From a virus, in IMG/VR virus record IMGVR_UViG_3300001472_000018, positions 35,321-57,246 of that record: a DNA stretch of 21,926 nt; one strand, written 5' to 3'. Below, piece by piece: positions 1,832 through 17,245 of the stretch. The notes under the pieces are model-generated. The model did not search any database, was not told the DNA's origin, and saw nothing but the letters and a program-made list of their open reading frames with translations. Position numbers and translations under genes: made by a program. Position 1 is the stretch's first letter, and the number at the start of each line of letters is the position of its first letter.

Positions 1832-2137
1832 ATGGAAATTGTCAAGCCCGGGATAGAGTATCGGCTGCACAACTTCAAGTCAGAAACAGAGTATCAAACA
1901 GTACGCTTCACCGAGAAGACACCTACTGGATTTGTACCAGGAACGACTAATGAAGAAGTGGTGTCGATGTTTATTGATCGCCTGTATGCACTGCAGGCTA
2001 AAAACTTTTCTGTAGAAAATCAGTGTTGTATTATCTTACTTAAACAAGTTAGAGTGCTTCTAAAGAAGCGTTTAAATCGTAAGATCGACAGAGTAAACAA
2101 ATACCAAGAGAATGCAGCTGGAGATCAAGACAAGTAA
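1832..2137 (+). CDS. Acb2/Tad1 hairpin-domain-like protein (candidate cyclic-nucleotide sponge)
   Basis: The 101-residue protein has a variable N-terminal strand region (1-35) followed by GTTNEEVVSMFIDRLYALQ (residues 37-55) and a second helix with EN at 62-63, ending in a basic K/R-rich stretch (79-90). This pattern (GTTNEEV, then IDRL, then a second long helix starting at a conserved EN) matches, as I recall it, phage proteins annotated with the Acb2/Tad1 hairpin domain. Acb2 and Tad1 bind cyclic di- or trinucleotides or gcADPR and block CBASS or Thoeris immunity. The usual C-terminal signature of the family (EALMWL...RT.DR..RGVEG) is diverged here, so nucleotide binding is inference. I chose ATG 1832 over the GTG three bases upstream. 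The 3' end overlaps the next gene by 26 bases. Confidence 0.55.
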   Translation: MEIVKPGIEYRLHNFKSETEYQTVRFTEKTPTGFVPGTTNEEVVSMFIDRLYALQAKNFSVENQCCIILLKQVRVLLKKRLNRKIDRVNKYQENAAGDQDK

Positions 2138-2465
2138 AAAAAGTTTTATTCGCCACTACTTAGAACTTTTAAATGGTATCTTGAAGCTGACTCCCCGTGA
2201 GCTAGATTCACTGCTACTCTTTTTAGAATTCGACCCAGAAGTAGCGTGTAGCATGCAGGCAAGAAAGTTTGTTGCAGAGGCAATGAACTTTAAAAGCGTT
2301 AGTGTATTAAACAACTACGTAAAGAGCCTTAAGGACAAGAAAGTCATTCACAAGGATGACCACGGGGTGTATCGGTATAATGACATTGTTAAACCGCATG
2401 GAAACCTTGAATCACTTACCTTCAAATTCGTCGTCACCGAAACCTCTATTTCGCCTAGAATATGA
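2112..2465 (+). CDS. Winged-helix DNA-binding protein; candidate small terminase subunit
   Basis: The 117-residue protein has an N-terminal helical part with LTPRELDSLLLFLE (26-39), a helix-turn-helix region around residues 49-78 (MNFKSVSVLNNYVKSLKDK is at 58-76) and a wing-like hairpin at about 80-92. Small winged-helix proteins of this style occur just before terL in crAss-like and other Bacteroidota phages. No other small terminase is visible, so this is the best candidate for the subunit that recognises phage DNA for packaging; a late transcription regulator is the alternative. The start overlaps the preceding gene by 26 bases, and the next gene follows after one base (TGA-G-ATG). The fold is fairly clear; the function is inferred from position. 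Confidence 0.55.
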   Translation: MQLEIKTSKKSFIRHYLELLNGILKLTPRELDSLLLFLEFDPEVACSMQARKFVAEAMNFKSVSVLNNYVKSLKDKKVIHKDDHGVYRYNDIVKPHGNLESLTFKFVVTETSISPRI

Positions 2466-2466
2466 G

Positions 2467-2607
2467 ATGGATTCGCTTGACGTATTGTTTGCGTTTGAAC
2501 TGTCTATGGCTACAGAGCTTGAAGACCAGCAGGTGTTGTACGATACGGCAGTATCTGTTGGGCTGCACACCTACGTTTTAACTTACATAATCTATGCCGC
2601 GACCTAA
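2467..2607 (+). CDS. Small hypothetical protein, 46 aa
   Basis: This short frame starts with an ATG one base after the previous stop (TGA-G-ATG), the same junction type seen three times in this window, and it overlaps the next gene by 14 bases. The frame is also open upstream to 2356, but that longer version would lie inside the winged-helix gene, so the short form is preferred. The product has an acidic N-terminal half and a hydrophobic C-terminal segment (about residues 28-45, GLHTYVLTYIIYAAT) that could be a weak membrane or buried helix. No family is recognised. It may serve mainly to couple translation between its neighbours. Confidence 0.45.
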   Translation: MDSLDVLFAFELSMATELEDQQVLYDTAVSVGLHTYVLTYIIYAAT

Positions 2608-2827
2608 TAAACTGATGGAAGAACTTATCCTGGAGATACTTCAGGAAGACGGGGGGACTTATGAGGAGGTGTCGGAAGTAGTTATGAGTCAGTTTACTTT
2701 TTTGCGCAAGCACATGGAGCACGGAGCATTTAGTACAGTGCGCTTACCCTACCTGGGCAAGTTTTATGTTAAACCCGGTCGGCTATACAGATTAAACAAT
2801 GCGATTATTCAGGGAAGAAAGTTTTAA
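2594..2827 (+). CDS. HU/IHF-like small DNA-binding protein, 77 aa
   Basis: The protein has two N-terminal helices (about 5-43) followed by VRLPYLGKFYVKPGR (49-63). The arrangement of helices, then a short strand, then a (P/G)-x-(L/F)-G-x-F-x-V strand, resembles the core of HU/IHF-type proteins, where this segment forms the beta platform before the DNA-binding arms. Short proteins with this LPYLGKF-type motif are common just before terL in Bacteroidota phages. The full HU arm is missing, so DNA bending is not assured; a role in packaging or genome organisation is inferred from position. The gene overlaps both neighbours (14 and 29 bases), showing tight operon packing. Confidence 0.5.
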   Translation: MPRPNKLMEELILEILQEDGGTYEEVSEVVMSQFTFLRKHMEHGAFSTVRLPYLGKFYVKPGRLYRLNNAIIQGRKF

Positions 2828-3362
2828 AGTAGTAGTAGATACAGAGCTGAAGTTAATCCCAGAGTTTAAGGCTCTAATTACTCGGGACCGCAGTGCCGAT
2901 AAAAAGCAAGCGGTTAAAGAGTTGAGTTTTATCTACTTTTTCCACGACCACAAATCGCCTTATTTTATTTACCCTGAGGATGAACGCCGCTTGCGTGTGT
3001 GTAAAGATTCTGGGCTAGGCGAGGCCTTTACTCCTGATGATAAAGTTAAAGCGGCTGTTAAAAAATACCTTGAGTTGTCTAAGACTCCGACTATTCAGTC
3101 TCTTACATCTATACGCGAGGGTCTGCTTACTAGTAGTAGGCTTATTGATACATTGCGCGAGCGTATTGAGTCTGCTCTTGCTGATCCTTTGTTGGAAGAC
3201 ATTGACCCTGTTGTGCGATCCGTTACCCGCATGCTCGAGATTTCTGAGAAGCTGCCAAAGGCGATTGAGAATATTACATCGCTAGAAGAGAAGGTAAAGA
3301 AAGAGGAGTCTAATGATGTGCGCATCAAGGGAGGAGGTAAAAAAGGAATGTTTGAAGACTAA
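2799..3362 (+). CDS. Conserved terL-upstream protein, 187 aa, function unknown
   Basis: The pattern LIPEFKAL (19-26), then ELSFIYFFHDHKSPY (41-55) and YPEDERRLRV (58-67), is one I associate with a protein encoded immediately before terL in crAss-like and related Bacteroidota phages. Its function is not established as far as I know. The second half (about 80-170) is helical, with a probable coiled coil near 120-170, and the C-terminus is a flexible GGGKKG linker ending in MFED. Such a tail could dock onto a partner such as terminase or portal. The start overlaps the HU-like gene by 29 bases, and the stop overlaps the terL start (TAATG). A packaging accessory or small-terminase-like role is inference. 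Confidence 0.6.
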   Translation: MRLFREESFKVVVDTELKLIPEFKALITRDRSADKKQAVKELSFIYFFHDHKSPYFIYPEDERRLRVCKDSGLGEAFTPDDKVKAAVKKYLELSKTPTIQSLTSIREGLLTSSRLIDTLRERIESALADPLLEDIDPVVRSVTRMLEISEKLPKAIENITSLEEKVKKEESNDVRIKGGGKKGMFED

Positions 3363-5371
3363 TGTTAGTTAATACAAGAGAATTTAGTAGGAGTGGGCAA
3401 CACTTCTTAGAACACGGGTTCTACTGTGCTGACCCGCCAGGCAGTGCTGCGTACTTTGAGTACTGGGCTGAAGAACTGCGTCGGTGCAAGGTGGGCTATC
3501 AAGTGGGAGGGACGGCTATTACCGGGCATCACTACTTCTATCTAAACTACGTACAGATAAAACTGACCGATAAGGGAAATAAAAAGATAGTTTCTTTTCC
3601 AAACTTTTGGGACGGAGACTACGAGTACTTCTGGTTGCAGGACATTGCACGTAATGGAACTACCGTTGAGAAATATCAAAAGCTAGGCCTATCTTCAGTT
3701 GTTGCTCCTGAGCACATGGATGGGAGTCGGCACATGATTGTAGGTAAAGCGCGTCGTAAGGGATTCTCGTACAAAAACGCTGCTTTAGTAACCAATACCT
3801 TTAACACCGAACGCAATAGCTATACTTTGCTTTGTGCCTTTGACAAAAAATACCTTTACCCTAAAGGCATTATGGCAATGGTTACAGACAACATGAACTT
3901 TCTAAATGAACACACGGGATGGGCAAAGCGCAGGCAGGTAGTCGATAAACAGAATCACCGCAGGGGCAGCTACTTAGAGTACATGTCGGGACAACAGGTG
4001 GAGAAGGGCTACAAGTCTGAGGTAGAGGCGATTACATTTAAAGATAACCCAGACGCTGCTCGTGGTAAGGATGCTAGTATCGTTATCTTCGAGGAGTGCG
4101 GGGCATTTGATAATCTCAAAGCATCTTACCTCGCTACTAAACCAACCGTAGAAGACGGCGGTGTTACAACAGGGCAGATGATTTTGTTTGGCACAGGCGG
4201 AGACATGGCAGGAGGCACGATTGATTTCGAGAGTATGTTCTATAATCCAGAAGCCTACAATCTTTTACCTATTACAAACACTTGGGACGAAGGCACGGAC
4301 CACTCTAACTGTGGGTTTTTCTTTCCTTCTTTCATTAACAAGATTGGGCATATGGATTTCTCTGGCAACAGCGATGTAGCTGGGGCAAGACAGTCGGAAG
4401 AAGCAAAGAGAGAGCAAATTAAACGAGATGCTAAAGATGCGGGTGTACTAGATAAGCATATTACAGAGTACCCATTTACGCCTAAGGAAGCATTCTTGCA
4501 GCATACAAGTAATATTTTTCCTACCGCTACCCTTATGGAATGGAGAAACGAACTTATGCGCAGTGGCATGTTTAAATCTCTAGCAGTAGCGGGGCATTTA
4601 GTGCAAACCCAGTCTGGTATAAAACTTAAACCAGACGACCGGTTGCGCCCTGTATTAAAATTTCCTACACAACGCGGGGACGATACAACAGGATGCGTTG
4701 TAATGTACCAGTCTCCGTACAAAGAAAATGGTGAGGTTCCTGGAGATCTGTACATTATCGCGCATGACCCTTATGCGCAGGACGGTAAAGGGCAATCTTT
4801 GGGGGCTGCGTATGTCTTGAAACGTGTAAATCCTTACAGCCAACCCGACGATATGATTGTTGCAAGTTATATAGGCAGACCAGATACGCAGGATGAATAC
4901 AACAATACCCTATTTTTGCTGTCAAAGTATTATAATGCTCGTATAGGATTTGAGAATGACCGAGGTGAAATTATTCCTTTTGCTAAACGTCACAAAATGA
5001 TGCAGCAGCTTTTACCAGAGGTAGAAATCTTTGATAAAACGGACAATGTGCGCATACGCAAGCTAGGCCGTAGTTACGGCATGAGCATGGGTAGTAAAGA
5101 ACGTAAAGGGCAAGCAGAAATCTATCTAAGAGACTGGTTAAAAACTCCTCGGGGTCGCAACGAGTCTGGAGAGATAAAGCTTAATCTACACCAAATATAC
5201 GATATTGCGTTGATAGATGAGTTAGTAAAGTACAATCGTCGTGGCAACTTTGACAGAGTTTCCGCGCTGATGGTAGGCATGTTTCATTTAAAGGACCTGC
5301 ATTCTAGAGAAGTCCAGGTGGTAGAGCAGTCAAGTAATGACACTTTTTTTGACCGAGACTTCTTTTCATAA
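3362..5371 (+). CDS. terL: Terminase large subunit (ATPase-nuclease packaging motor)
   Basis: TerL drives phage DNA into the prohead by ATP hydrolysis and cuts the concatemer. The 669-residue protein has the expected order of motifs. A Walker A variant, GKARRKGFSYK, is at 128-138. Walker B, SIVIFEE, is at 239-245 with catalytic E245. The coupling motif FGTGGD is at 276-281. The RNase H-like nuclease domain has acidic residues D469 (IIAHDP), E531 (IGFEND) and D631 (NFDRVSAL). All key residues are present, so it should be active. The Walker A form and the length fit crAss-like and related Bacteroidota phages. The start overlaps the previous stop as TAATG, implying coupled translation. The portal gene follows after 11 bases. 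Confidence 0.93.
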   Translation: MLVNTREFSRSGQHFLEHGFYCADPPGSAAYFEYWAEELRRCKVGYQVGGTAITGHHYFYLNYVQIKLTDKGNKKIVSFPNFWDGDYEYFWLQDIARNGTTVEKYQKLGLSSVVAPEHMDGSRHMIVGKARRKGFSYKNAALVTNTFNTERNSYTLLCAFDKKYLYPKGIMAMVTDNMNFLNEHTGWAKRRQVVDKQNHRRGSYLEYMSGQQVEKGYKSEVEAITFKDNPDAARGKDASIVIFEECGAFDNLKASYLATKPTVEDGGVTTGQMILFGTGGDMAGGTIDFESMFYNPEAYNLLPITNTWDEGTDHSNCGFFFPSFINKIGHMDFSGNSDVAGARQSEEAKREQIKRDAKDAGVLDKHITEYPFTPKEAFLQHTSNIFPTATLMEWRNELMRSGMFKSLAVAGHLVQTQSGIKLKPDDRLRPVLKFPTQRGDDTTGCVVMYQSPYKENGEVPGDLYIIAHDPYAQDGKGQSLGAAYVLKRVNPYSQPDDMIVASYIGRPDTQDEYNNTLFLLSKYYNARIGFENDRGEIIPFAKRHKMMQQLLPEVEIFDKTDNVRIRKLGRSYGMSMGSKERKGQAEIYLRDWLKTPRGRNESGEIKLNLHQIYDIALIDELVKYNRRGNFDRVSALMVGMFHLKDLHSREVQVVEQSSNDTFFDRDFFS

Positions 5372-5382
5372 ATCGATATCTG

Positions 5383-7581
5383 ATGACCCAGATCCCAAAA
5401 CAAAAAATTGCTAGATCTCGCAAGTCCAAAGACTGGGCGCAGGACTGCATCCGTGCTTTTATCAATCGTTCGTCATTTAGCACGAGCACTAAGCACACGC
5501 TACAAACATACTATGAGGCCTATAATGGGAATCTTAGAGAGGCGGATTACAACTATGTAACGAACCCTTATAATAGCGAAGCATGGGCTAAGAAGAACTT
5601 CCCAGCTCGATTGCGTAACTACAATATTATCAAGCCTATCATAGACTTGCTCTTAGGAGAAAAAGCCAAGCGCCCGTTAGCTTACCAAGTTGTTGTACGC
5701 AATAGCGATATCGAATCGCGGTTTGACAAGTTTCGGAAGACGCAGTTCCGTCAGTACCTAGACCAAGTCTTTGTTAACGAGGCAAACAAACAAGGCATTG
5801 CAACTGGACAAGAGTCTGCCGAACTGCCTGCTGCTGAGGAGTACATGGACCAAGTCTTTTCTAACTATAGGGATTCCCGTGCTATTATGGGGCAGGAGGT
5901 GTTGAATTACCTATTCGATTGGCTCGGCATGGAGGATCAGATTCAAAAAATGTTCTTTGACTGGTTAGTTGCGGGGGAGTGCTATTCGTACAAAGACGTT
6001 TGCATGAACGACGTGAGCTACGATGTGGTGTCTCCTTTAGATATTGACTTTGAGAAGGGGCCGGACGTAGAGTATATTGAAGACGCGGATTGGGTAGTAC
6101 GACGCCAGGTCATGAGCGTTAACCAAGTAGTGGACCGTTTCTACGATGTTTTGACCCCAAAACAAATTGATCGGCTTGAAGCTCCTCATGGTAAATACCG
6201 TGATTCTGCAGGCGGGGCACAAAGCATGTTTAATACCAAGTCGGATGAAGACGACTCGGATCGTATGATAGAGGTAATGCATGTCTGTTGGAAGTCTTTC
6301 TCACGTGTAGGCATTTTGAGCTACATAGATGAGTTAGGACAGCCGCAGGAAGAAGTAGTAGACGAAACTTACTCGGTGGAAGAGAATGAGGAGATTAAAT
6401 ACTACTGGGTAAATGAAGTTTGGGAAGGGTATCAAATTGATAAAGACCTTTTTGTATCTCACCAACCTCATCCTGTACAGCGAAATGAGATGAATAATCT
6501 TTCTGTATGCAAGCTGCCATATAACGGCAGGGTATACAGCAATCGGCACAGCGATAACATAAGCGTTGTCAGCATGGGGCTGCCGTACCAAGTTCTTTAC
6601 AATGTATTTCATTACCGCCTAGAGCTGTCTATTGCTAAGAACAAAGACAAGATTATGCTTATGGAGATGAATACCATCCCTAAACGCCATGGTTGGGACG
6701 AAGAGAAGTTTATGTATTACGCGGATGCTATGGGCTACGCGTTTATTGACTCTACTGCAGAGGGCAAGAACAACGAACGTGTTACTTTTAATCAGTACCA
6801 AGTACTGGACATGTCTTTAGGTCAGTATATCGCGGCTCAGTTCCAACTACTGCAAGCTATTAAAGCTGAGTGGGAAGAAAACATTGGGGTCTCACGGCAA
6901 CGCAAAGGGCAAGTAAAGACCTCTGATGGCGTAGGCACGACCGAACGCGCAGTATTTCAGTCTTCCGTTATCTCAGAAGAGATATTCAGACGATTCGAGT
7001 CTTTCTTAGAGCGCGAGTATGCAGGTTTAATTGACACAAGCAAGATTGCATGGCGAGAAGGCAAAAAGATGTCTTACGTAACCAGCGATTTGCGTACAGC
7101 CCTAGTGAGCGTAGACCCTCAAGAGTACCAAGAAGCTGAATACGGAGTATTTGTCAAGAATAACAGCCGCGAGCAGGACAAGTTAAACCAGATTAAGTCT
7201 TTGGCTTTAGCCTTTGCTCAGAACGGGCAGCAGCCTTCTACTATTGCGGAGATTATAGACAGCAACAACTTCAGTCAAATTAAAACTTTGATGGCAGAGG
7301 TTGATGAAAAGCAAAAAGAAATGCAAGAACAGGCTAGTCAAATGCAGCAGCAACAACTTCAAGCTCAAGCAGAGGCACAGGCTCAGGAAAAGCAAGGAGA
7401 CCAGATGTTTGAAGCGGATCAAAACGACAAAGACCGCATGGTTCAACTAGAGCTTAAGAAAATGGAAGTTGCCTCTAAGTTGACTACAGATGCAGACGGT
7501 AATGGGCGTAAAGACGAGATTGACAAGGCTCGGTTAGACGTCGAAAAAGAAAAAGTGGCGCTCCAACGTCAAAAAGGTTGA
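5383..7581 (+). CDS. Portal protein
   Basis: The portal is the dodecameric ring at one capsid vertex through which DNA passes. The 732-residue protein directly follows terL. Its N-terminal region has YYEAYNG at 43-49 and RNYNIIKPIIDLLLGEKAKR at 78-97, both typical of crAss-like and Bacteroidota phage portals, followed by a long mixed alpha/beta body. From about residue 637 onward the chain is glutamine- and charge-rich and likely coiled coil. Inside it, residues 703-714 (DADGNGRKDEID) form an EF-hand-like calcium-binding loop. There is no Shine-Dalgarno sequence. A 70-base spacer with a candidate promoter follows before the scaffold gene. Confidence 0.87.
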   Translation: MTQIPKQKIARSRKSKDWAQDCIRAFINRSSFSTSTKHTLQTYYEAYNGNLREADYNYVTNPYNSEAWAKKNFPARLRNYNIIKPIIDLLLGEKAKRPLAYQVVVRNSDIESRFDKFRKTQFRQYLDQVFVNEANKQGIATGQESAELPAAEEYMDQVFSNYRDSRAIMGQEVLNYLFDWLGMEDQIQKMFFDWLVAGECYSYKDVCMNDVSYDVVSPLDIDFEKGPDVEYIEDADWVVRRQVMSVNQVVDRFYDVLTPKQIDRLEAPHGKYRDSAGGAQSMFNTKSDEDDSDRMIEVMHVCWKSFSRVGILSYIDELGQPQEEVVDETYSVEENEEIKYYWVNEVWEGYQIDKDLFVSHQPHPVQRNEMNNLSVCKLPYNGRVYSNRHSDNISVVSMGLPYQVLYNVFHYRLELSIAKNKDKIMLMEMNTIPKRHGWDEEKFMYYADAMGYAFIDSTAEGKNNERVTFNQYQVLDMSLGQYIAAQFQLLQAIKAEWEENIGVSRQRKGQVKTSDGVGTTERAVFQSSVISEEIFRRFESFLEREYAGLIDTSKIAWREGKKMSYVTSDLRTALVSVDPQEYQEAEYGVFVKNNSREQDKLNQIKSLALAFAQNGQQPSTIAEIIDSNNFSQIKTLMAEVDEKQKEMQEQASQMQQQQLQAQAEAQAQEKQGDQMFEADQNDKDRMVQLELKKMEVASKLTTDADGNGRKDEIDKARLDVEKEKVALQRQKG

Positions 7582-11083: not shown

Positions 11084-11776
11084 ATGACTGTTCAAGAGAT
11101 GCACTATGCTGTGGACCAGGGATTACAAAAAGTAGCCTCGTCGGTCTATGATTACTTCTTACCTGAAGAGGTTGACTTTTGGTTGAATCGGGCACAGGAA
11201 AGATTTATTAAGCAGCGTCTCTACAAACAGACTGATCCTAAAAAAGTCGGATTTGAAGGCAACATAAAGCGTATGGATGACCTCCGTATGCTTATTACAG
11301 TAGACTATGAAGATGGGGTGGTTCCATCTTCTAATGTAGACTTTGTAAACTTTGACTTGCCAATCGATTATATGTTCCTCGTCAATGCTCGCGTGCAATT
11401 TCACGTGAACCATTGCGGGGAACAAGTCGATACTGCAGACCCTTTGGTTATCAGGGATTTAAGAATTGTTGAGCAAGACAAAGTATACCAGCACCAGCAG
11501 AATCCTTTTGGAAAAACTAGGGCTGAAGCTCCTGTAGCAACAATTTTTGACGACGACGTTAGGGTCTTTCAAGAGAAAGAAAAGTTTATATTAAAAACAC
11601 TGCGGCTAGATTACTTGCGGGTACCTGTTGACATTACGCTGTCAACTAGCGTAGATTGCGAACTCGCAGAACACACGCACCACGAGATTGTAGATCTCAC
11701 GGTGAAAAGCATCATCGAGGCCATAGAGTCGCCACGATACCAAACGACTTCTATCGAACAACAACAATCTGAGTAA
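11084..11776 (+). CDS. Head-tail adaptor (neck ring) protein
   Basis: The 230-residue protein carries LPEEVDFWLNRAQERFIKQ (26-44) and GFEGNIKRMDDLRMLI (56-71). This combination is typical of a neck or adaptor protein of crAss-like and related podoviruses, which sits below the portal. The C-terminal HEIVDLTVKSIIEAIESPRY (about 200-219) also fits the family, where a final helix packs against the ring. The gene follows the conserved 269-aa gene in the head module, and its TAA overlaps the next start (TAATG). It has no signal or membrane segments. The family is assigned from recalled patterns; the exact ring position is unknown. Confidence 0.7.
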   Translation: MTVQEMHYAVDQGLQKVASSVYDYFLPEEVDFWLNRAQERFIKQRLYKQTDPKKVGFEGNIKRMDDLRMLITVDYEDGVVPSSNVDFVNFDLPIDYMFLVNARVQFHVNHCGEQVDTADPLVIRDLRIVEQDKVYQHQQNPFGKTRAEAPVATIFDDDVRVFQEKEKFILKTLRLDYLRVPVDITLSTSVDCELAEHTHHEIVDLTVKSIIEAIESPRYQTTSIEQQQSE

Positions 11777-16018: not shown

Positions 16019-17245
16019 ATGGACATTCTTGCATTAGTTAAACAGTACTGCAAGAATCACCGAAATGAGACACACGCGCGTATCGCTTCGCTGATTCTTG
16101 AAGAAAATCCAGGAGTTGAGCTGTCACATCGCTCGCTACGACGAGCGGTGGCTAAAGAGCGCAAGCCCGTTCCAGAGGTAACTCAAGATATTTCTCCGCA
16201 AGCAGCTAGCTTTACCTATAAAGGTGCTGATCCTATTAACAACTTAGACGAAGCCTTAGAGTACTTTAAGGTAGACACTTCTAAGTGGGAAGTTGCTCGG
16301 TACACTTGCAATAGTTGGGAATCCCAAACTAAGACAGGTCCTATAACCATGCACCAGGTTAAGGTTCAACTTGAGCCTAAAACTGTAGAAATAGATCTTG
16401 AAGGAGTTATTGAAGATTTGCGCGAAACTCTAGATGGGTTTCAAATCAATCGCGGACCTGGAAGCAATACAGCGGTTCTCGCTCTCTCAGACTTCCATAT
16501 AGGAGCTAAAGTAGAGGCTATGGGCAACACGCCTGTATTTGACGTCAAGACCGTTGTAGCACGCTTACAAGAAGTCGCTACTCAGGTAAACTCTAAACAG
16601 TATGAAGATGTTTACGTTTGCCTTCTTGGGGATTTCATTGAATCTTTCACAGGGCTTAACCATATGTCTACATGGCACGAGCTTGAGCATAAGGGACACG
16701 GCACTAATGTTATTATCCTAGCTTATAATATCATTCGTAGATTCTTAACGAGTCTTGACAATGTAGCAGGCGTATATATCGTTAGTGGTAATCACGATAG
16801 GGTTACCATGAAGATGGAAGGAGACCCATATGGTTCAGTAGCAGGACTTCTTGCATTTATGCTGAAAGAAAACACTCCGTTGGATATAAGACACAATGCC
16901 GTACTTTTGGGAATAGAGATAGATAGTATCTATTACATCCTTACACACAACCATTTTGGAGTGTCTAAGGGAGACTTAGGAAAGGCTTTCTGGGAGCATG
17001 GACGGCAAGGCGTATACAATGTTATGCTGGGCGGTCACTGGCACTCGCGGAAAGGAAAGCGGGTCTATACCACTATAGACGAGAAACAAGTTGATCAAGC
17101 AAACTACCGGCAGCTAGCAGTTGCTCCTTTGTTTACGGGTAATTTTTACTCGGAAAGCAACGGGTGGAATAGCTCTGCTGGTTATACTGTAATTGTAAAT
17201 AACGGACAGGGGAAACCCAATGTCTTTGAATACGTTTTATCCTAA
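16019..17245 (+). CDS. Calcineurin-like metallophosphoesterase with N-terminal helical domain
   Basis: The catalytic domain (about 150-375) contains the full metal-binding set: D158-x-H160 (LSDFHIG), G204-D205 (LLGDFIE), G257-N258-H259-D260, H310 (LTHNHFG) and G339-H340-W-H342. It should therefore hydrolyse phosphoesters with two metals. Residues 1-48 look like a small helix-turn-helix domain. The linker contains LDEALEYFKVDTSKWEVARY (76-95), a segment I associate with phage metallophosphoesterases. Family members act on DNA ends (SbcD/Mre11), cyclic nucleotides or proteins; the substrate here is not evident. No SbcC-like ATPase is present. It sits among fibre genes and its stop overlaps the next start (TAATG), so it is expressed late and may be a virion component or act on the host during assembly. 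Confidence 0.88.
   Translation: MDILALVKQYCKNHRNETHARIASLILEENPGVELSHRSLRRAVAKERKPVPEVTQDISPQAASFTYKGADPINNLDEALEYFKVDTSKWEVARYTCNSWESQTKTGPITMHQVKVQLEPKTVEIDLEGVIEDLRETLDGFQINRGPGSNTAVLALSDFHIGAKVEAMGNTPVFDVKTVVARLQEVATQVNSKQYEDVYVCLLGDFIESFTGLNHMSTWHELEHKGHGTNVIILAYNIIRRFLTSLDNVAGVYIVSGNHDRVTMKMEGDPYGSVAGLLAFMLKENTPLDIRHNAVLLGIEIDSIYYILTHNHFGVSKGDLGKAFWEHGRQGVYNVMLGGHWHSRKGKRVYTTIDEKQVDQANYRQLAVAPLFTGNFYSESNGWNSSAGYTVIVNNGQGKPNVFEYVLS

Follow-up and report, generated by a model that had tools for sequence, protein, structure and literature searches.

Tad1 and Acb2 are known as sponges of immune signals, and when a gene resembling theirs is found among the packaging genes of a phage one may ask whether it still serves against host defence or has become part of the packaging process itself. 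The case considered here is a small gene in a stretch of 21,926 nucleotides (the window), part of a 57-kb virus record, which a preliminary description had read as a probable anti-defence gene of the Acb2/Tad1 hairpin family at the head of a packaging operon, either a sponge of altered specificity or a version recruited to packaging.

The gene itself is real. It is an intact open reading frame that starts at an ATG (an in-frame GTG lies just before it, at 1829) and encodes 101 amino acids plus the stop, and the motifs from which it had been recognised are all present in the translation, namely GTTNEEV (residues 37-43), IDRL (48-51), EN (62-63) and KKRLNRK (78-84). An initial search of IMG/VR yielded 46 relatives, at 72-100% identity, and profile scans counted 183 and 191. 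Measured against close relatives only, as dS is near saturation further out, dN/dS is 0.047-0.062 (about 0.05), indicating strong purifying selection. No promoter, repeat or Rfam signal marks out the start of the operon. The features discussed below are collected in Table 1.

Table 1. Coordinates in the window of the Tad1-like gene, of its parts and of the genes that follow it
Feature	Position	Strand	Basis
Tad1-like gene; N-terminal strands (residues 2-35) and two-helix hairpin	1832..2137	+	ORF, PHROG Tad1 match, AF2, Foldseek to CbTad1
GTTNEEV motif (residues 37-43), entry of helix 1	1940..1960	+	Alignments; common to canonical relatives L142 and L223
Predicted helix 1 (residues 40-57)	1949..2002	+	AF2 models
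S-V-E-N turn (residues 60-63); [SC]-R-E-N in canonical members	2009..2020	+	Alignment
Predicted long basic helix 2 (residues 61-98)	2012..2125	+	AF2 model, charge comparison
Small winged-helix/VpsT-like putative regulator (wHTH)	2112..2465	+	Synteny; next after the gene in all relatives checked
IHF/HU-like gene of the crAss structural block	2594..2827	+	PF00216, E 0.004, below cut-off; profile matches
Gene of 187 aa adjoining TerL, probably equivalent to crAss gene 86 (putative TerS)	2799..3362	+	
Terminase large subunit (TerL)	3362..5371	+	phrog_6681, E 3e-137
Portal protein	5383..7581	+	phrog_6547, E 1.5e-119

The hairpin model of Pfam (PF24729, Acb2_Tad1_hairpin) matches neither the window protein at E<=10 nor any of its relatives at E<=1; it places SBSphiJ7 Tad1 above its cut-off and the proteins of L142 and of phage phi17:2 just below. 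Since this model gives no match, homology was built by way of PHROGs, profiles and folds. The Tad1 PHROG (phrog_2428) matches the window protein alone with an E-value of 5e-5 and all 28 of 28 diverse relatives (for reference, SBSphiJ7 Tad1 matches this PHROG with 8e-47 and the CbTad1 hairpin with 5e-25). In HHalign, the subfamily alone was aligned with Tad1 homologues at a probability of 95% and an E-value of 3.3e-8, and in a profile search of the PDB it had Tad1 chains on top, at 0.005. When two canonical relatives, L142 and L223 (which share 35% and 33% identity, respectively, with the window protein), were added as bridges, these values became 1.3e-14 and 2.5e-9, part of the gain being due to the added sequences themselves. 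The single sequence gave only a weak Tad1 match in the PDB (E 0.19), and a tblastn search with it against isolate phages found nothing. Homology to Tad1 can be detected across residues ~9-93.

Structure prediction points the same way. Two single-chain AlphaFold (AF2) models (pLDDT 84.7 and 86.0, pTM 0.65) have the layout of Tad1, i.e. antiparallel strands at the N-terminus, here five short ones, followed by two long helices, at residues 40-57 and at 61-100 or 61-98. Foldseek, which had been suggested as a check on the assignment, returned Tad1 structures and nothing else from the PDB below an E-value of 0.05 (11 matches with one model and 17 with the other); TMq was mostly 0.5-0.63, and outside Tad1 no match was better than an E-value of 0.25. 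The N-terminus of Acb2 is a short helix rather than strands (PMC12043709), a layout from which the five-stranded model departs, and this, together with the strands and the Tad1-only Foldseek result, makes the protein Tad1-type. We conclude that the window protein is a diverged Tad1 homologue, of Tad1 type rather than Acb2 type, so that the family named beforehand was right but can be narrowed to one of its two branches. The lack of a profile match, which was to have counted against the family, was literally the outcome for PF24729, but it is outweighed by the PHROG matches, by HHalign (E 3e-8) and by Foldseek.

What sets the subfamily apart lies in the hairpin. Canonical members, including L142 and L223, follow the pattern [SC]RE[NT]..A[IL]T...E.[SA]LMWL.KRTA.R..RGVEG, whereas the aligned subfamily reads S[VAST]EN...I.LLK.[VI]R..L.KRL..K[IK]..V.KY, so that the basic helix 2 stands in place of the canonical AITKLEEALMWLxKRTxxR-RGVEG. 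We collected 56 distinct sequences, the two canonical ones and 54 of the subfamily. In all 54 of the latter the arginine of REN has become V, A, S or T, the LEEALMW core is replaced, its first glutamate being K or R, and the tryptophan is missing; in the aligned representatives the RGVEG tail has turned into a basic helix. The protein therefore does not have the full set of residues and the tail ([SC]REN..AITKLEEALMW..KRT..R..RGVEG) by which a canonical Tad1 is recognised. What the subfamily has preserved is the N-terminal domain, GTTNEEV, E62-N63 and R80. The net charge of helix 2 and the tail is +3 to +8, compared with -1 to +3 in canonical members, and since this charge is spread round the helix (charge moment 0.02) and forms no charged face, a DNA-binding face is not indicated. 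In Tad1 the C-terminal tail lines the pocket for gcADPR and cyclic dinucleotides, which it forms together with four conserved loops and helices of the partner subunit (PMC12043709, a review); judging from the lost tail and the short loops, the canonical pocket is unlikely in this subfamily.

The window belongs to a crAss-like phage: its TerL, portal and major capsid proteins (the last by phrog_11589) match crAss-type families, and a crAss ring-protein model matches 11084-11776, below its cut-off. On the plus strand the Tad1-like gene runs into an operon with IHF-like, putative TerS, TerL, portal and major capsid genes. IHF and gene 86, a TerS candidate, are core genes of crAss phages (PMC7886860), and the 187-aa putative TerS has matches in gut crAss phages with E-values of 1e-25 to 1e-12, while the wHTH gene has profile matches in FpV4, cr10_1 and PhiCrAssBcn9. 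The genes that come after the Tad1-like gene belong to the structural block of crAss phages: Flavobacterium and gut crAss phages possess homologues of wHTH, IHF-like or TerS. That the gene heads the packaging operon is slightly inexact, as two small plus-strand ORFs (1334-1516 and 1523-1801) precede it. The second of these, of 92 aa, evolves fast (mean identity 52%) and was detected in 13 of 24 loci, unlike the Tad1-like gene. Further downstream, among virion genes, 16019-17245 (+) encodes a candidate calcineurin-like metallophosphoesterase of 408 aa, based on sub-threshold Pfam matches and on GDFIE/GNHD motifs.

Among 76 TerL loci examined, 46 had at least 2.3 kb upstream, and in every one of the 46 the order was hairpin gene, wHTH, IHF-like, putative TerS and TerL, with variable spacers; these are related contigs, and so represent one conserved arrangement, not 46 independent events. 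Identity to the window, averaged over 24 loci, was 69% for the Tad1-like protein, 67% for portal, 73% for TerL, 57% for wHTH, 56% for the IHF-like protein and 62% for TerS, i.e. the Tad1-like gene evolves about as slowly as the portal gene. It is constantly present, keeps its place by the IHF-like, putative TerS and TerL genes and changes at the rate of a core gene. No hairpin gene was found anywhere in FpV4, Fpv1, phi40:1 or five gut crAss genomes, so that its status as a core gene is confined to this clade. FpV4 gp03, which occupies the equivalent position, was considered as a counterpart and is not a homologue. A scan with a TerL profile, intended to find crAss-like phages at a greater distance, led back to this clade. 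The changed form also occurs on two Bacteroidetes MAG contigs, which fits Bacteroidetes hosts for the clade. On a contig of a Prolixibacteraceae MAG (DMFR01000207.1; L141:469-2974) a crAss-like packaging operon that includes the hairpin gene is immediately preceded by a pair of adjoining tyrosine-recombinase genes (Phage_integrase, E 1e-7 and 3e-8), and these may be a sign of an integrating crAss-like phage.

Three readings of the locus other than our preferred one have to be considered. For an unrelated protein with a chance two-helix hairpin, such as an antitoxin or a MazF-like fragment, one may cite the silent Pfam hairpin model, a best Pfam match to PemK/MazF (sub-threshold, E 0.075) and a profile of the closest relatives that puts MazF slightly above Tad1 (0.03 vs 0.055). 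This identity was followed and fell behind once the profile was made more diverse (0.005 for Tad1 vs 0.29), and with the 28 of 28 PHROG matches, the HHalign result, strands that are predicted to come before the hairpin as in Tad1, and Foldseek placing Tad1 three orders of magnitude ahead of any other fold, we regard such a coincidence as highly improbable. An ordinary sponge that adjoins packaging genes by chance, being expressed throughout infection and having no role in the virion, would find a parallel in canonical Tad1 genes, whose neighbourhoods vary (in Bacillus phages, for example, they include genes for a ssDNA-binding protein and a UvsX-like recombinase), but the fixed order in 46 of 46 loci, the core-gene rate and the missing hallmark residues make it improbable as well.

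A more serious contender, which we consider quite possible although not the likeliest, is a sponge of altered specificity that would be made late, packaged and injected, so that immune nucleotides in the newly infected cell would be taken up without delay. Such a course has a precedent in gp184 of phiKZ, a Tad1 homologue. This protein is found in the virion and its injection has been demonstrated (PMC10449902); it has been characterised as a Tad1 which, once injected, inhibits CBASS and Thoeris (PMC13282480), and is thus an actual case of a sponge that is made late, packaged and injected. Hairpin relatives in Lactococcus phage 1706, Bacillus phage P59 and Klebsiella phage Eowyn are annotated as "structural protein", the N-terminal domain, GTTNEEV, E62-N63 and R80 are retained, and the positive charge of the hairpin might be suited to an anionic ligand. 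Against an altered sponge stand the lost REN arginine, LEEALMW core and RGVEG tail, and a core-like constraint with no sign of turnover, although strong constraint and gene order would also fit a sponge needed in every infection. The phiKZ precedent and the structural annotations lead us to prefer a protein that would be produced along with the head genes and remain with the DNA-filled head, and the loss of the canonical residues makes recruitment somewhat likelier than an injected sponge. One point against association with the virion is that gp070 of Cellulophaga phage phi4:1, also a hairpin relative, has no mass-spectrometry-based virion annotation, whereas other phi4:1 proteins, including neighbouring head proteins, do. 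Synteny and constraint by themselves do not locate the protein in the virion or elsewhere.

Homology, predicted fold, gene order, constraint and residue replacement are observed or computed, and the reading that we favour, with confidence that is evenly balanced, is that a Tad1-fold core protein was recruited to the late, head stage of infection, its signal binding altered or lost. According to this recruitment reading, a sponge of cyclic nucleotides or gcADPR, with a strand domain and a two-helix hairpin, would be the ancestor, and its gene would have become a fixed member of the late head and packaging operon in an environmental crAss-like clade. The second helix would have turned basic while the canonical tail and conserved hairpin residues disappeared. 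The protein, in which the hairpin probably still serves to build an oligomer, would be made late together with the head genes and may stay with DNA-filled heads, whether on the DNA, on a packaging partner or as internal cargo, and it presumably no longer binds gcADPR as Tad1 does. An anti-defence role, read beforehand as probable, is better called possible, given the replaced residues and tail and the behaviour of a fixed head and packaging core gene; between the two alternatives offered beforehand, altered sponge and recruitment to packaging, we lean to the latter. More speculatively, and on the doubtful side, an immune-evasion protein may have turned into a structural or packaging factor, its nucleotide-sponge fold being exapted for an essential function at the head or packaging stage in this clade, where it would possibly still sense a nucleotide in order to set the timing of packaging or to shield the injected genome.

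What is new is a Tad1-fold subfamily that is fixed in a crAss-like packaging operon and missed by the Pfam hairpin model; since the model misses the whole subfamily, counts of sponges in metagenomes are underestimates. The gene is invariant in the checked members of the clade, which is described as one of abundant, marine crAss-like phages, moves with packaging genes and has had its canonical residues replaced, and this suggests either that sponge folds can become parts of the virion or packaging apparatus, or that phages routinely load sponges into their virions in advance. Virion-borne sponges may be commoner than reported, given two Tad1-family genes annotated as structural, gp71 of Lactococcus phage 1706 (L221:3869-4222) and P59_140 of Bacillus phage P59 (L145:163-525).

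Compared with known systems, the protein comes closest to Tad1 (CbTad1, 7uav/8smd/8kbf; CmTad1, 8kbb; SBSphiJ7 Tad1; phrog_2428). Tad1 is a hexamer (three dimers) that has gcADPR/CDN pockets and CTN sites, and by taking up these signals it blocks Thoeris or CBASS. With Tad1 the window protein shares the predicted succession of strands and two-helix hairpin and the E62-N63 and R80 positions, but its loops before helix 1 are shorter, its helix 2 is more basic, the REN arginine, AITKLEEALMW core and RGVEG tail are replaced, and its gene is an invariant member of a head and packaging operon. With Acb2 (T4 Vs.4; PF24729) it has the two-helix hairpin in common, as does Tad1, but PF24729 does not match it and no Acb2 chain appeared among its PDB matches. 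L142, from a Bacteroidia MAG, and L223, a viral contig, have the same N-terminal style and GTTNEEV, yet both retain the canonical REN/RET, LMW and RGVEG, and the L142 gene lies outside any packaging operon; by eye, two DNA-methylase-like ORFs are seen a few kb downstream of it, in this non-packaging context (L142:9409-11747). The jumbo-phage Tad1 of phiKZ (gp184, PHIKZ184, PDB chain 8y6v_I) has the Tad1-family hairpin and is itself virion-associated, but at 230 aa, including an additional N-terminal part, it exceeds the crAss-like protein in length. In Cellulophaga phages phi4:1 (gp070, L222:8684-9028) and phi17:2 (gp072), where it is annotated as hypothetical only, a canonical hairpin gene likewise sits in the terminase operon with IHF-like and TerL genes; it has kept SRES-AITKLQEALHW and the tail, however, and is placed after the IHF-like gene, whereas in the clade of the window it comes before.
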